Source: Bryocella elongata
Lineage (GTDB): Bacteria; Acidobacteriota; Terriglobia; Terriglobales; Acidobacteriaceae
Assembly (NCBI RefSeq): GCF_900108185.1
Contig: NZ_FNVA01000002.1
Coordinates: 434,001 to 498,000, forward strand
Direction of reading: 5' to 3'
Length of the DNA: 64,000 nt
The notes beneath the pieces were generated by a model. The model made no database searches. It saw nothing but the letters and a program-made list of their open reading frames with translations, and had not been told where the DNA came from. Numbering within the stretch: the first letter of the stretch is position 1; every line of letters begins with the position of its first letter. Positions 22,408 through 28,254 of the stretch are shown here, piece after piece. Both the position numbers and the translations under genes were made by a program.

Positions 22408-22484
22408 TGGTCGGGGCGATTGGATTCGAACCAACGACCCCCTGCTCCCGAAGCAGGTGCGCTACCAGGCTGCGCTACGCCCCG
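22408..22484 (-). tRNA. tRNA-Pro (anticodon CGG)
   Basis: Read on the minus strand, the acceptor arm CGGGGCG pairs with CGCCCCG, followed by the discriminator A and an encoded CCA (22408-22410). The anticodon stem CCTGC/GCAGG encloses the loop TTCGGGA, giving anticodon CGG (plus-strand bases 22448-22450). The T-loop GTTCGAATC is canonical. Length is 77 nt. Confidence 0.96.
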
Positions 22485-22762: not shown

Positions 22763-24436
22763 TTACTGCTGGGGCGGAATCCCCGTTCTGGCTGCCATTG
22801 GTTTGCGCTTGTGGAGCGGCTTCAGCCCAGCCGACGTGGTGCCGTAGGCCTGGCCGTGCCGCTTGATCGTCGACTCATCGAAGACCTGCGTGTTGGCATC
22901 GTTGAAGGTAGCGCCCGCCGGCACCAGCACATCGTTGACGGTGCGACCGGAGGTATCGCCGACGCGAAGCTCAACGCGAGCCGGGTCGATGCCCTTTTCC
23001 TGCACCAGGTACTGGCGTGCATTCATGGCGCGTTCGGCAGCGGATTGTGGCACCTCATCGGGCGAGGCATTGCCGATCATCACCAGCTTCGCATCGGTGT
23101 GCTGTTGCATGGAGAGTGCGACGTCGTCGAGACATCCCTTGGCTTCGTTGTCGACGCGGACGGGGCGGCGCTTGTCGCGGCTGAAGGCGATGCTGCAGAG
23201 GCTCTGCGTCTGCGGAATCACCGGCACCGGCAGCGCGTTGACCGTGACACTGGTCGCCGCCGTGGCCGACTGGCCGAGGTCATCGACGGCACTGCAGCCG
23301 ATGTTGATCAGCGTTGCGCCGAGACCTGCGGTGTTCAGCGTGGCTGTGGTGCCGTTGCTCGTGATCTGGCCGGCGGAGGTGGTGTATGAGTAGGTCAGCG
23401 GGCGGTTCTGCGGGCTCGTGCCTACCGTGCTGATCTGGACGCCGGTACCCGACGTGACCGTGCTCGGATTGGCGGAGCAGGTGACGGTGGGAGGCTCAAA
23501 TGCCTTGACAGTGAACGGCGCAACGCAGGATGCCTGCTGGCTGGCCCTGGCGCCCTGGCTCACATGGCCGCTGACCGTGTACTGTCCCGGAGCCAGGCCT
23601 GTGGTGTCGATGGTTGCCGTCTCGCCCTTGGAGGTGACCTGCCCCCCGTTGGCGGTCCAGGTGTAGTCGGCCTTGTGCCTGGGGTTCAGGTAGAGCGTGC
23701 TTCCGGTGACGGTGACGGGGTCGCCGGGATGAATGCTGACGGGCTCCGCGGTGCAGCCCAGCATGACGGACTGCGATACCTCAGGCGCGCCGAAGCGATA
23801 GACCAGGCCGCCCGAGAGGTGTACGGCCTTGAGATCGCCCACTCCGCCCAGCGTCTGGTTGTAGACGGCGGGGTGCGGGAAGTGGGTGTGCGAGTAGTCC
23901 ACGTCCGCCTGTACGGCCCGGACGGCAAGATGCTTGTTCCAGAAGGGAAGGACGAGGTCGACGCCACCGCCGCCGGTGACTCCCGTGCCCCACGTGATGG
24001 GCTGCGCTGCTGGGCCGCCGGCGCGAACGCCGCCTGCCAGCAGGTGGACGAACGGCACCACGGGGCCGAGCTGCCACCGAACCACCGGGCCAGCTTCGGC
24101 CGAGGTGAAATGGTTGTCGCACTGCCAGCCGTAACACGTCGGCAGGAACGAGTAGTGCTCCAGCGAACCGGAGAAATAGACCCCCTGCACCTGCACGCCG
24201 AACCAGTGGTTGAAGTAGCCGGTGACGCTGGCCGTGGCGTTGAGATTCGAGGTCGGCGTGTAGGAGATCTGGTTGACGGCGCTATTGAAAGGCCGCAGAT
24301 AGCCGTAGCCGCCGTAGATCTCGAAGTGGGTATCGGGGTATTCGGAGGCCGATTTGGGGGCCTGGGCAGACAAGGCCGCCGGGGCCAGTGACAGGCCAAG
24401 GGCGATGGCGGAGGAAAGGATCGTGCGACGCAGCAT
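22763..24436 (-). CDS. OmpA-like surface protein: N-terminal barrel, two Ig-like repeats, OmpA C-terminal domain
   Basis: 557 residues from ATG 24436 with signal peptide LSSAIALGLSLAPAALSAQA. Residues about 35-230 look like an eight-stranded outer-membrane barrel (FEIYGGYGYLRPFNSAVN, ending LSGGLVYRFGAP). Two related Ig-like segments follow (VMLGCTAEPVSIHPGDPVTVTG and VTCSANPSTVTSGTGVQI, each leading to TxTxNTAGL or TIDTTGL). The C-terminal part (DVALSMQQHTDAKLVMIGNA, ERAMNARQYLVQEKGIDPARV) matches the OmpA/MotB peptidoglycan-binding domain. It probably tethers the outer membrane to the wall. It is a single gene, divergent from the sulfate operon. Confidence 0.82.
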   Translation of the reverse strand: MLRRTILSSAIALGLSLAPAALSAQAPKSASEYPDTHFEIYGGYGYLRPFNSAVNQISYTPTSNLNATASVTGYFNHWFGVQVQGVYFSGSLEHYSFLPTCYGWQCDNHFTSAEAGPVVRWQLGPVVPFVHLLAGGVRAGGPAAQPITWGTGVTGGGGVDLVLPFWNKHLAVRAVQADVDYSHTHFPHPAVYNQTLGGVGDLKAVHLSGGLVYRFGAPEVSQSVMLGCTAEPVSIHPGDPVTVTGSTLYLNPRHKADYTWTANGGQVTSKGETATIDTTGLAPGQYTVSGHVSQGARASQQASCVAPFTVKAFEPPTVTCSANPSTVTSGTGVQISTVGTSPQNRPLTYSYTTSAGQITSNGTTATLNTAGLGATLINIGCSAVDDLGQSATAATSVTVNALPVPVIPQTQSLCSIAFSRDKRRPVRVDNEAKGCLDDVALSMQQHTDAKLVMIGNASPDEVPQSAAERAMNARQYLVQEKGIDPARVELRVGDTSGRTVNDVLVPAGATFNDANTQVFDESTIKRHGQAYGTTSAGLKPLHKRKPMAARTGIPPQQ

Positions 24437-24565: not shown

Positions 24566-24599
24566 GGGTTTGCTCCGCAAGGGCCCGGGTTTGCCCCGC
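24566..24599 (+). repeat. 13-bp direct repeats two helical turns apart, overlapping the cys promoter
   Basis: GGGTTTGCTCCGC (24566-24578) and GGGTTTGCCCCGC (24587-24599) differ at one base and start 21 bp apart. The second copy covers the predicted -35 box. This is a plausible regulator site, unproven. Confidence 0.35.
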
Positions 24600-24619
24600 G
24601 CGGCCCGGGAACGTACAAT
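24591..24619 (+). promoter_or_regulatory. Predicted sigma-70-type promoter of the cys leader
   Basis: -35 box TTGCCC (24591-24596), a 17-bp spacer and -10 box TACAAT (24614-24619, five of six consensus bases). Transcription would begin about 7 nt later, at 24626-24627, which is the ATG of the cysteine-rich leader, leaving no 5-prime untranslated region. Confidence 0.5.
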
Positions 24620-24626
24620 CGAGAGG

Positions 24627-24707
24627 ATGAACCTGCTCTCGACACTCGGCGTCCGCTGTTGTGCCTCGGGGGCGTGTTGTCTCTCCGGCTGTTGTTGCGA
24701 GCTTTAG
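24627..24707 (+). CDS. Cysteine-rich leader peptide (26 aa) upstream of cysD, probably leaderless
   Basis: The frame reads MNLLSTLGVRCCASGACC then LSGCCCEL and stop: seven Cys in 26 codons, clustered as CC, CC and CCC. GAGAGG abuts the ATG with no spacing, so it cannot serve as a normal ribosome-binding site, and the predicted promoter puts the transcript start at the ATG itself. Polycysteine leaderless frames upstream of cysteine-synthesis operons act as cysteine-responsive attenuators in mycobacteria. Here the position before cysD-cysN-cysH, whose pathway ends in cysteine, argues for the same logic: ribosome stalling at Cys codons when Cys-tRNA is scarce. A longer in-frame start at 24495 is less likely. 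The function is inference. Confidence 0.6.
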   Translation: MNLLSTLGVRCCASGACCLSGCCCEL

Positions 24708-24759
24708 TTCGCCCTTCCGGAGCCGCCTGAAGGTTCTATCCCGAACCCGGCGACTTTTT
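24683..24759 (+). promoter_or_regulatory. Candidate transcription attenuator downstream of the cys leader
   Basis: Three mutually exclusive pairings can be drawn. Within the leader, CTCCGG (24683-24688) pairs with CCGGAG (24717-24722). CCTTC-GG pairs with CC-GAAGG (24713-24733). A terminator-like hairpin GGTTC (24732-24736) / GAACC (24743-24747), extended by GCCG (24722-24725) / CGGC (24748-24751), is followed by TTTTT at 24755-24759. The last two share bases 24732-24733. The stems are short, so this is a hypothesis needing folding and experiment. Confidence 0.35.
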
Positions 24760-24832
24760 CCCCACTCCACAATCTGATCCTCAGCGCCTCGGCATCTTCG
24801 CCTTTGGCTGCTGTCCTCACCGGAGGCCCCTC

Positions 24833-25777
24833 GTGTCCACAATCGCCGATGCTCCAATTGATGTTGCACAGCTTCATCGCGAGCGCATGAATCATCTTCA
24901 GGCGCTCGAAGCGGAGAGCATCTATATCCTTCGCGAAGCTGTCGCTGAGTTTGCCCGGCCAGTCATGCTCTACTCCATCGGCAAGGACTCCAGCGTGATG
25001 CTGCGGCTGGCGCAGAAGGCGTTCTTCCCCGGCAAGATCCCTTTTCCTTTGCTGCACGTGGACACCAGCTACAAGTTCCCCGAGATGATCGCCTTCCGCG
25101 ACCGGTACGTGAAGGAGATTGGTGCCGAGCTGATCGTGCACCGCAACGAAGAGGCCATTGCCGACGGTGCGAGCCCCTGGAAGCTGGGCACCCAGAACTG
25201 CTGTGGCGCGCTGAAGACGCGCAGTCTCCTCGACGGGCTGGAGGAGGGTGGCTTCGATGCCGCGTTCGGTGGGGCTCGCCGCGACGAAGAGAAGTCCCGC
25301 GCCAAGGAGCGGGTCTACAGCTTCCGCGACAGCGCAGGCCAGTGGGACCCCAAGAACCAGCGCCCGGAGCTGTGGCAGCTCTACAACTCCCGGCTGCGGA
25401 AGGGCGAAAGCATCCGGGTCTTCCCGTTGAGCAACTGGACGGAGCTCGATATCTGGCTCTACCTCTACTCCGAACAGATTCCCATCGTGCCGCTGTACTT
25501 CGCCGAAGAGCGCGACGTGGTGGTGCGTGGTAACACGCTGACCCTGGTCGATGAGACGACGCGACTTCTGCCACACGAGAAGGTGGAGAAGCGTAAGGTG
25601 CGCATGCGTTCGCTTGGCTGCGCGCCTTGCACAGGCGCCATCGAGAGCGATGCCGATACCTTGCCGGCGATCATCTCTGAACTCATCACCTTCCGTCGCA
25701 GCGAGCGTGAGAACCGTGCCATCGACCATGACGAAGAAGGTTCGATGGAGCTGAAGAAGCGCGAAGGATATTTCTAG
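24833..25777 (+). CDS. cysD: Sulfate adenylyltransferase subunit 2
   Basis: 314 residues from GTG 24833, with GGAGG 6 nt upstream. The PP-loop ATP-pyrophosphatase motif [14 protein letters not shown] lies near residue 47, followed by the CysD-typical [36 protein letters not shown] and [10 protein letters not shown]. With the GTPase CysN it makes adenosine 5-phosphosulfate (APS) from sulfate and ATP in the cytoplasm, the first step of sulfate assimilation. Length and motifs are normal. It is the first full gene of the operon, 125 bp after the cysteine-rich leader. Confidence 0.96.
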
Positions 25778-25878
25778 AGGCTGTTGCTTGCCATTGGCTC
25801 TTCGACGTTGTGATTCACCGCACGCCACACAACGACCAGCAACGCAGTCTCTCCCGATTGATCTCAAGGACCACCGCC

Positions 25879-27528
25879 ATGTCGACATTGATTACCGACC
25901 CCCGCGAAGCTGCCTTTCGCGCCTTCCTCGACGCTCACCTCGACCAGGAGCTGCTGCGCTTTACGACAGCGGGCTCCGTGGATGACGGGAAGTCGACCCT
26001 CATCGGCCGTCTGCTGCATGACACCCGCTCGGTCTATGAAGACCAGCTCGCTGCCGTGCGCGCCAGCCGCGTAAACCGCGCAGGCAATGGCCAGGTCGAT
26101 CTCTCGCTGCTCACCGATGGCCTCCGCGCCGAGCGCGAGCAGGGCATCACCATTGACGTTGCCTATCGCTACTTCTCGACGTCGAAGCGCAAGTTCATCA
26201 TCGCGGATACACCCGGCCATGAGCAGTACACCCGCAACATGGCGACCGGAGCTTCGACCGCTGATGTGGCGATTGTGCTCATCGACGCGGCTGCCTTCGT
26301 GAAGGCCGATGGCCTGTTGCCGCAGTCGCGCCGCCACACCAACATCGCTTCACTGCTGCGCATTCCACACGTGGTCGCTGCCGTGAACAAGATGGACCTT
26401 GTTGGCTACTCGGCTGAGGTCTTCGACCGCATCGCTGCTGAATTCACCAAGCTTTCAGCCGAGCTCCAGCTCGAGAGCGTAGCTCTCGTTCCGGTCAGTG
26501 CGCTGGCGGGGGACAACGTCGTCGATCCCTCAAAGAACATGCCCTGGTACACCGGGCCGACGCTGCTCGAATACCTGGAGACGGTGCAGTTGCAGGTGCG
26601 CGATGAGTCGCAGCAGCCGTTGCGCTTTCCGGTGCAGCTCGTCGTGCGTCCCGATGCAAACTTCCGCGGCTTCGCAGGACGCATCGAGCGCGGTGAACTT
26701 CGCGCAGGACTCAGCGTGCGGGCGCTGCCTTCAGGCCGCGTGACGAAGGTCAAGTCGATCGTGACCTACGATGGCGAGCTGAAGAGTGCGGCCTCGCCGC
26801 GCTCCGTCACGGTGGAGCTTGAGGACGAGATCGATCTTTCCCGCGGCGAGATGCTCATTGCGGAGAACGAGACTGCGCCACTGGTGACGAATCGTATCCG
26901 CGCCATGCTGGTCTGGATGCTCGAGCAGCCGCTTGAGCTGGGGACGAATTACCTGCTGAAGCACACCACACGCACCGTGCGTGCGACCGTCAGGGCCATC
27001 CGTCATCGCATCGACGTAAATACCGGCGAGCGTCTCGCCGCGACGAAGCTCAACCTCAACGATATCGCCGAGGTAGAGCTCGAGACCAGCCTTCCGCTCT
27101 TCTTCGATCCCTATGCCGAGAGCCGTGCGATGGGCTCGTTTATCCTCATTGATCCCGTGACCAACGCGACCGTGGGCGCTGCCATGATCGTCGCTGCGGC
27201 GGACGAAACCTCGGGCTCCGAGCCAACCGCAAGCCTTCGGCGCTTCGCGTTTGTACACTTGAGCGGCGACGATGCTGCCGCTCGCGCAACCGCGCTGCGT
27301 GAGTCGCTGCTTGCCATCGGCCGCAACGCCATCATCGTCGACGATGCGAAGATCTCACCGTCCTCGCTACCCTCAGTCGCCCGCGCACTGGAGCTCGCCG
27401 GCGTCATCGGCATCTCGGCGCGGGAGCAGCTCGACGAGGTTTCGCTGGTGGCATTACGCGAGTCCGCCGGGGAGGCGTTCTTCACCGATGAAGTCGCGGC
27501 AACCCACTGGATTCAAGCTACAGAGTAA
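25879..27528 (+). CDS. cysN: Sulfate adenylyltransferase subunit 1 with degenerate C-terminal APS-kinase remnant
   Basis: 549 residues from ATG 25879 (AAGGA 8 nt upstream); the upstream in-frame ATG at 25810 is unlikely. The GTPase domain has GSVDDGKST, DTPGHEQ and NKMD; beta-barrel domains follow. CysN alone is about 475 residues and CysN-CysC fusions about 630. Here a tail of about 95 residues (454-549) resembles CysC: FVHLSGDDAAARATALRESL aligns with the APS-kinase P-loop region, but the GxxGKS/T loop is replaced by GDDAAAR, and the DGD-N-R-GLN segment is missing before VARALELAGVIGIS. The GTPase should be active, the kinase part not. It drives CysD. Confidence 0.93.
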   Translation: MSTLITDPREAAFRAFLDAHLDQELLRFTTAGSVDDGKSTLIGRLLHDTRSVYEDQLAAVRASRVNRAGNGQVDLSLLTDGLRAEREQGITIDVAYRYFSTSKRKFIIADTPGHEQYTRNMATGASTADVAIVLIDAAAFVKADGLLPQSRRHTNIASLLRIPHVVAAVNKMDLVGYSAEVFDRIAAEFTKLSAELQLESVALVPVSALAGDNVVDPSKNMPWYTGPTLLEYLETVQLQVRDESQQPLRFPVQLVVRPDANFRGFAGRIERGELRAGLSVRALPSGRVTKVKSIVTYDGELKSAASPRSVTVELEDEIDLSRGEMLIAENETAPLVTNRIRAMLVWMLEQPLELGTNYLLKHTTRTVRATVRAIRHRIDVNTGERLAATKLNLNDIAEVELETSLPLFFDPYAESRAMGSFILIDPVTNATVGAAMIVAAADETSGSEPTASLRRFAFVHLSGDDAAARATALRESLLAIGRNAIIVDDAKISPSSLPSVARALELAGVIGISAREQLDEVSLVALRESAGEAFFTDEVAATHWIQATE

Positions 27529-27552: not shown

Positions 27553-28254
27553 ATGACTGAGACCATCACCAATCTCACCGAACAGGCGGAAGCGCTCTCG
27601 GCAGCTGAGCTCGTCGATGCAGTCGTCGAGGCCTCCAGTGGCAAGGATGTCTGCTTCACCTCGAGCTTCCAAACCGAGGACATGGTCGTGCTGCACCTGC
27701 TGAAGCAGCGCCTGCCCGATGTGCCCGTGATCTTCCTCGAGACGGGCTATCACTTCGTCGACCTGATTGAGTACCGGGATCGCGTCGTGAGGGAGTGGAA
27801 CCTGAACCTCGTGAATGCGCTACCGCAGACCACGCTCGCAGAGCACGAAGCCCAGTTCGGCCTGCTGCACATCATCGATCCGGGACAGTGCTGTGCGATC
27901 CGCAAGGTTGAGCCTTTGATGCGTTCGCTCGAGCCATTTTCATGGTGGTTCACGGGGCTGCGCCGCGAACAGTCGCCCACGCGCGCGAACCTGAAGAAGG
28001 TCGAAGACCATAAACTGCCCACCGGCAAGATGATGAAGAAGGTGAGCGTGCTCGCGGACTGGACCTGGGCGCAGGTCGATGCCTACGCGACGGAGCACAG
28101 CATCCCCCGGCTGTCGCTGTACGATCGCGGCTATACGTCGATTGGCTGCGAGCCCTGCACGAAGGTTCCCGAGGCCGGGGCTGATCCCCGCAGCGGACGC
28201 TGGGGCGGCGCGAAGCTGGAGTGCGGCATCCATACCTTCAGCGAGAAGGCGTAA
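27553..28254 (+). CDS. cysH: Iron-sulfur adenylyl-sulfate (APS) reductase
   Basis: 233 residues from ATG 27553, 24 bp after cysN. The N-terminus has the SSFQTEDMVVLHLL nucleotide-binding region. The paired cysteines in GQCCAIRKVEPL and GCEPCTKVP ligate the [4Fe-4S] cluster that distinguishes APS reductases from the PAPS-specific enterobacterial CysH, and the catalytic cysteine is in ECGIHTF. It reduces APS to sulfite with thioredoxin or glutaredoxin as donor. The cluster ligands agree with the missing APS-kinase activity in CysN: this operon has no need to make PAPS. Sulfite reductase is not in the window. Confidence 0.94.
   Translation: MTETITNLTEQAEALSAAELVDAVVEASSGKDVCFTSSFQTEDMVVLHLLKQRLPDVPVIFLETGYHFVDLIEYRDRVVREWNLNLVNALPQTTLAEHEAQFGLLHIIDPGQCCAIRKVEPLMRSLEPFSWWFTGLRREQSPTRANLKKVEDHKLPTGKMMKKVSVLADWTWAQVDAYATEHSIPRLSLYDRGYTSIGCEPCTKVPEAGADPRSGRWGGAKLECGIHTFSEKA

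Follow-up and report, generated by a model that had tools for sequence, protein, structure and literature searches.

What is a frame of 26 codons, seven of them for cysteine, doing upstream of a sulfur-assimilation operon in an acidobacterium? The frame lies ahead of cysDNH within a 64,000-nucleotide stretch of the Bryocella elongata genome (hereafter the window; contig NZ_FNVA01000002.1, positions 434,001 to 498,000). In mycobacteria, leaderless polycysteine upstream frames reportedly act by attenuation, as Canestrari is said to have described in 2020, and a sequence-only reading of the window had proposed a cysteine-sensing leader of that kind here. We suggest, with a probability of roughly 0.8, that positions 24627-24707 constitute a gene for a leaderless leader peptide, through which charged tRNA-Cys is sensed in cis and cysDNH expression is set. 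The proposal draws on the frame itself, the spacing of its promoter, its conservation and its codon bias, and on the terminators and antiterminator co-variation of other leaders, all of them features of sequence, on which the frame is a real cysteine leader and very probably a regulatory one. Of the two forms in a wider, seemingly undescribed set of leaders, the one in the window is the less well understood.

The leader frame and its promoter

The leader, MNLLSTLGVRCCASGACCLSGCCCEL, runs on the plus strand from an ATG at 24627 to a TAG at 24705-24707, as read from the sequence, and its cysteines are grouped as CC, CC and CCC: Cys11-Cys12 (TGT TGT, 24657-24662), Cys17-Cys18 (TGT TGT, 24675-24680) and Cys22-24 (TGT TGT TGC, 24690-24698), the last run ending two codons 5' of the stop. 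Upstream on the same strand stand a -35 element, TTGCCC (24591-24596), and a -10 element, TACAAT (24614-24619), separated by 17 bp; a promoter scan recovers the pair as the sole promoter-like site between 24400 and 25000 (shuffled sequences averaged 0.1). The start codon follows 7 nt downstream of the -10 element, a spacing that is similar in most congeneric cysD loci. By the usual count, transcription starts at the seventh base 3' of the -10 element, which places the predicted +1 at 24626, or else at the A of the ATG at 24627. The hexamer GAGAGG abuts this ATG with zero spacing and would fall outside the transcript, so that the leader is left without a usable ribosome-binding site. The sequence-only reading had described a seven-Cys frame ending 125 bp before cysD, a promoter whose predicted start falls within one base of the ATG, and the lack of a ribosome-binding site; rereading reproduces the frame exactly, reading and scan alike confirm the promoter, and the placement of GAGAGG bears out the third point.

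Between the leader stop and the cysD start codon lie 125 bp (24708-24832, plus strand) of C-rich, G-poor spacer (C 0.40 and G 0.20 over the first 100 nt), which contain the cysD Shine-Dalgarno sequence (SD), GGAGG, at 24822-24826. There follow, all on the plus strand, cysD, for a sulfate adenylyltransferase subunit (24833-25777, GTG start), cysN, for the large subunit (25810-27528, given as the longest frame, whose true start may be further in), and cysH, for (phospho)adenylyl-sulfate reductase (27553-28254); a frame of 557 codons diverges upstream of the leader from a start at 24436. The leader peptide matched no NCBIfam model at E up to 1, and at the gathering score the window's RNA matched nothing in Rfam but a tRNA. 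That tRNA gene lies at 22411-22484 on the minus strand.

Conservation at acidobacterial cysD loci

Loci for comparison came from a scan of named genomes, of which 80 cysD loci were kept and among which the window's best cysD matches are titled Acidobacteria and Terriglobus, and from a search of 61 genomes, 38 of them matched, that gave 30 cysD loci including the window itself. Minus-strand loci were reversed, and with two loci lacking upstream DNA (L027, L052) and two duplicates (L085, L097) left out, the final set comprised 61 acidobacterial loci and 45 from other phyla. A fixed criterion for leaderless frames (TAnnnT placed 5-8 nt ahead of the start codon, a length of 8-60 aa and a distance upstream of no more than 600 nt) picked out frames with at least two, three and four Cys in 25, 17 and 13 of the 61 acidobacterial loci, as against 5, 4 and 2 of 61 when the opposite strand was read and 5, 2 and 1 of the 45 loci from other phyla. 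Curation by eye, which allowed a few bases of leader, gives 43 of the 61, a count that this way of working biases upward and that includes a frame without an ATG, GTG or TTG start (L108) and one cut by the contig end (L008). Close relatives had been expected, on the sequence-only reading, to carry Cys-rich frames at this place; leaders are indeed present, but their richness is uneven, since 33 of the 43 have at least three Cys, eight have two and two, both congeneric (L001, L092), have one. Overall the curated leaders span 1 to 11 Cys, and the remaining peptide differs widely between groups. The congeneric leaders L001, L002 and L092-L099 have one or two Cys yet retain both their leaderless start and a core, R(I/V)xRC(P/S/Q), which may do more than count cysteine.

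A phylum-wide cysD search matched 35 of 119 genomes and yielded 29 further loci, of which 24 were scanned and five weak ones omitted. Leaders were present at six of seven loci of the window's family (three found by script, three by eye) and, by script only, at none of 17 outside it. The 18 loci of the main set that lack a leader include five titled Bryobacterales or Bryobacteraceae, two titled Sulfopaludibacter, one titled Acidobacteriaceae (L026) and one titled Holophagae (L032). Four of 13 such loci examined (L010, L023, L025, L061), none with a Cys frame, matched a regular expression for CTATnGACA 36-48 nt before the cysD match; this motif is possibly a protein operator, which would put the operon under another regulator at these loci. 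Across 13 leader-bearing loci, Rfam matches at the gathering score were limited to a tRNA and part of a group II intron (RF02001; L009 1-119, minus strand).

Codon choice sets the leaders apart from the genes that they precede. Across the 43 leaders cysteine is encoded as TGT 152 : TGC 58, whereas the cysD genes that they precede use 8 : 180 (p 1e-49); the leaders' remaining NNY codons end in T 140 : C 257 (p 2e-18 against the Cys codons). The relatedness of the loci makes these p values, like the others given here, too small, and the contrast is nonetheless large. In the window's own genes the ratio is 1 : 3 in cysD and 1 : 5 in cysH. UGU is hence rare in cysD yet dominant in the leaders, as if preferred where the ribosome should be slow. 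A test for third-position excess was negative (129, 136 and 145 differences at the three codon positions among related leaders), and changes spread so evenly lend no support to a constraint on the leader peptide.

Two forms of cysD leader

Sixteen of the 43 cysD leaders (L005-L009, L011, L013, L017, L019, L021, L100, L102-L104, L106, L107) are followed by a hairpin resembling an intrinsic terminator, with dG from -12.4 to -27.3 and a T-rich tail (poor in L100), each equalled by 0-3 of 100 shuffles. Weaker hairpins follow five more (L022, L028, L030, L031, L105), that of L028 beating all 100 shuffles. The other 22, which comprise the window and its close relatives and are here called the window type, have no conserved intrinsic terminator, and a hairpin rises above chance in L088 alone among them (3 of 100 shuffles). 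Neither these terminator-like hairpins nor the leaders before other genes described below had been part of the sequence-only reading.

The two forms also differ in where their cysteines lie, the median number of codons from the last Cys to the stop being 0 in the 22 window-type leaders and 7 in the 16 of the terminator form (p 3e-5). Of the 22 window-type leaders, 20 place their last Cys within 0-2 codons of the stop, and the last CC, where present, is 0-3 codons from it (12 of 12), whereas the last CC of the terminator form lies 9-15 codons away in 11 of 14 and 1 or 5 codons away in the rest; L102 and L104 are exceptions, combining a terminator with a last CC one codon short of the stop. Start codons of cysD divide along the same line: GTG or TTG begins the gene in 18 of 22 window-type loci and in 0 of 21 with other leader types, where starts were picked by SD score and a recheck altered one (L001, to ATG, reducing 19 to 18).

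In the terminator form, the end of the leader is complementary to the terminator 5' arm in seven of 16 loci at p<0.05 against dinucleotide shuffles (Fisher p 1.6e-7), and cognate pairs of leader and arm beat non-cognate ones (n=16, p 0.0002, which is the floor of this test; p 0.0006 for 12 dereplicated loci). A fold common to the window type was sought with RNAalifold and rejected: nine diverse leaders share almost no structure (-0.4 kcal/mol), and two sets of near relatives each have a structure of their own, none being common to both.

Leaders upstream of sulfite reductase

Sulfite reductase, which mycobacterial nirA encodes, is preceded in the window's own genome by a second leaderless Cys-Cys leader (L142 1513-1674; G000:C4, about 596500; alignment A1), and likewise in 16 congeners, which makes 17 of the 19 searched genomes of the genus. 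The search for this gene (here sir) matched 30 of 31 genomes, and the upstream stretches were then read; the leader also occurs in three genomes from a different family of the order (L112, L126, L138). Its core is often RIAACCPCP, and TGTTGT, GCCCAC and GTGGG are invariant in 17 of 17 aligned sequences. The own-genome terminator, GCCCACG..CGTGGGT followed by TTTTTG, has a dG of -16.0. Folded without the terminator 3' arm, the leader after the first Cys pair meets the 5' arm or adjoining bases in 12 of 17 cases, judged by reading, and cognate leader-arm pairs beat non-cognate ones (n=17, p 0.0002; 12 dereplicated, p 0.001); for the own-genome sir leader alone, the leader-to-arm shuffle test gave p 0.91. 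A phylum-wide sir search (51 of 119 genomes) found leader and terminator in five of eight new loci of the window's family and in none of 21 new loci outside it. We hold it highly likely, from these sequence patterns, that the sir leaders and the terminator-form cysD leaders are classical transcription attenuators.

Leaders before other genes

The window's own genome (5.67 Mb, 16 contigs) was scanned with four patterns, giving 20, 19, 18 and 39 hits; 30 of the 39 in the largest scan had a locus to read. In-frame leaders with terminators were found before sir, a PF03601 gene, DUF6152, DUF1684 and a CxxCH protein that no Pfam model matched. A hairpin of -13 or better accompanies five of 16 in-frame short hits versus two of 65 other hits, with 12 of 200 random window stretches as a control. 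Five congeners were scanned with one of the patterns, and candidate leaders there precede cysteine dioxygenase, three more CxxCH proteins, carbonic anhydrase and others. Among 28 curated leaders of genes other than cysD, 26 have a hairpin of -13.2 or better (also 26 at a threshold of -12.4), some of these leaders having been picked with the terminator in view because candidates were listed for a -35 match or a terminator. The leader-to-arm shuffle test was significant in five of the 28 (Fisher p 0.002), a weak result, after which the comparison of cognate with non-cognate pairs was made. The search pattern is no commoner than its reversed control; membership of a regulon rests on frame, promoter and terminator. 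In 20 regions from four congeners, nine had a hairpin of -11 or better and 11 did not, and several (L346 and L357 among them) probably reflect chance.

Particular targets recur to different degrees. Four of 31 genomes have DUF6152; a Cys leader stands before it in every one of them, and a terminator in three. Its loci include L150/L273 (G000:C9:44693), where DUF6644 is the next gene, L347 and L363; in two congeners a second Cys-Cys frame diverges from the same intergenic region. We found no mention of DUF6152 in the literature searched. The PF03601 protein (L191 / L250, G000:C16:31613) has a very Cys-rich leader, MKLSHTSATCCMCCCMLRCRAGVCTL, and a terminator, and since two of 30 PF03601 loci (L250 and L246) have a Cys leader this target is not generally conserved. 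The gene for cysteine dioxygenase, an enzyme that degrades cysteine, identified by Pfam in L344 and by likeness to it in L350 and L358, is preceded in these three congeners by MAF..CCRC frames without an intrinsic terminator. One protein family of the own and congeneric genomes (L149, L348, L353 and L362, the last assigned by its N-terminus) has Cys leaders and terminators; three of these four proteins contain a CTQCH motif, and L149 has no Pfam match.

We see even odds that these observations reflect a ribosome-sensed cysteine regulon in members of the window's order, with leaderless, UGU-rich leaders and two interchangeable output platforms coexisting in one cell. Its targets would then be, with the same evenly balanced confidence, cysDNH, sulfite reductase, cysteine dioxygenase, DUF6152, c-type-cytochrome-like genes and, in some genomes, the PF03601 gene, and its platforms, for which we would wager neither way, would be an intrinsic terminator or a terminator-less arrangement with stop-proximal Cys codons.

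Proposed mechanism and output at the window's cysD

We posit that, when cysteine is plentiful, the ribosome would reach the leader stop codon and downstream expression would be low, and that when cysteine is short it would stall on the UGU codons and downstream expression would rise. In the sir leaders and many cysD leaders of this genome and its relatives within the order, stalling on the Cys-Cys pair, which in most sir leaders lies 12-16 codons before the stop, would leave the leader's end available for pairing to the terminator 5' arm. The window's cysD leader would be of the second form, with no such terminator and with its last Cys codons adjoining the stop, and here the stalled ribosome would most likely shield the start of the C-rich spacer, in a Rho-dependent, tna-type arrangement, or couple to cysD initiation. 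We take the sensing step to be the same as in the terminator-bearing leaders; for all the leaders we infer the transcript start, translation and the response to cysteine, and for the window's cysD the output step as well. Since SD occlusion finds no consistent support, this output may be Rho-dependent, translational or of another kind.

A Rho-dependent output is a tentative reading to which we give somewhat less than even credence: once the ribosome leaves the stop, Rho would load on the C-rich spacer, and a stop-proximal stall would mask the site. The stop-proximal cysteines of 20 of 22 window-type leaders are consistent with it, as are the lack of a conserved intrinsic terminator and an SD region without pairing bias towards the leader, and the mean C/G skew is 0.18 in window-type spacers but -0.03 in the DNA ahead of their promoters (Wilcoxon p 5e-7), with 0.33 in the window. 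The same has been proposed for mycobacteria in the available text of Seliverstov (2005; PMC1262725). The skew, however, does not tell the window type (0.18) from the terminator form (0.11; p 0.17), and a ribosome stalled early would expose the spacer rather than hide it. Stop-proximal stalling and a C-rich spacer thus fit Rho dependence, and neither is specific to it.

Translational control, in which leader RNA would occlude the cysD SD and the stalled ribosome would open it, strikes us as plausible and rather doubtful. The weak start codons of 18 of 22 window-type cysD genes suggest control of initiation, the Cys runs lie near the stop as in mycobacteria, and in the window the predicted SD accessibility goes from 0.06 to 0.18 on modelled stalling. 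Across the type, however, modelled stalling raises accessibility in four of 22 loci and lowers it in four, and co-variation of leader and SD is absent in 17 loci, where cognate pairs do slightly worse than non-cognate ones (p 0.975, start-24..+0); none of 11 start-anchored intervals reached p<0.05, and one of eight stop-anchored intervals gave p 0.027, uncorrected.

A weak intrinsic terminator of the window's own is an unlikely controller of cysD. The hairpin CGCC..GGTTC..GAACC..GGCG, followed by ACTTTTT (24724-24759, plus strand, dG -10.1), does end in a run of T, and five other Cys leaders of the same genome have intrinsic terminators, but 22 of 100 shuffles equal it, which is chance level, and no counterpart was found in congeneric cysD leaders; it was rejected as a candidate. 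It is very improbable that the peptide works in trans, for instance as a metal or redox binder, as seven Cys in 26 residues might suggest, given that cysteine number varies from 1 to 11, that the rest of the peptide is variable between groups and that no NCBIfam model matches. Chance is unlikely for the cysD leader frames, and for the window's frame we consider it the most remote reading of all: the frame is short and without third-position excess, but the excess under the fixed criterion, the 43 curated leaders, the codon bias and the invariant sir motifs argue against it.

Discussion

If the window's frame is the cysteine-sensing leader that we propose, a major soil phylum would control its sulfur assimilation by cysteine through a translation-based sensor, one that possibly arose apart from its actinobacterial counterpart, and the same sensor would be wired to different outputs within one genome. 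Frames this short are missed by ordinary gene calling. The system would allow a direct test of why terminator and terminator-less forms coexist, and of leaderless translation in Acidobacteriota. It also offers functional leads for several families of unknown function: were the regulon real, sulfur-linked functions would be predicted for DUF6152, DUF6644, DUF1684 and the CxxCH family.

No description of cysteine leaders in Acidobacteriota was found among the titles listed by literature searches, which leave subscription papers largely uncovered and hence are no proof, and among attenuators predicted for acidobacteria almost none has a known function, according to the accessible part of one study (PMC2965389). 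Related systems are known elsewhere. As far as the available text goes, Streptomyces lividans has leader peptides (LeuL, TrpL, IlvL and others), several of them leaderless, with or without a Rho-independent terminator (PMC8079986); these serve other amino acids, and none of the eight listed there is called cysteine-dependent. The uORFC-8-2 motif before cysS in Rhodobacterales combines two tandem Cys codons with an intrinsic terminator in the portion available (PMC8632094), but it precedes a tRNA synthetase gene in alphaproteobacteria and is dominated by UGC, whereas the leaders described here are UGU-dominated and their targets are sulfur-assimilation genes. With attenuators of the trp, his and leu type, the sir leaders and 16 cysD leaders share regulatory codons, an antiterminator arm and an intrinsic terminator; they differ in being leaderless or nearly so, in their cysteine codons and in belonging to Acidobacteriota, and the window's own leader differs further in having no terminator.

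The closest likeness is to the mycobacterial attenuators. Accessible parts of the literature report cysteine leaders without terminators in Mycobacterium, P. acnes and B. longum (Seliverstov 2005; PMC1262725), mycobacterial cases that include cysA2 and nirA (Shell 2015; PMC4633059), and, in M. smegmatis, SD occlusion that a stalled ribosome opens (PMC9031893 and PMC13236596, citing Canestrari 2020). The sequence-only reading's proposal of a cysteine-sensing leader in Acidobacteriota stands in so far as the frame is leaderless, conserved at orthologous loci and mycobacteria-like in anatomy; SD occlusion, the mechanism reported for mycobacterial attenuation, lacks consistent support here (four up and four down of 22 loci, no co-variation in 17). 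In both systems the ATG lies at the transcript start (here a predicted one), the Cys runs are near the stop, no terminator is conserved and the genes downstream are sulfur genes, nirA being a target there and sulfite reductase here. Unlike the mycobacterial attenuators, the present leader belongs to another phylum, stands before cysDNH and shares its genome with a terminator-equipped form.
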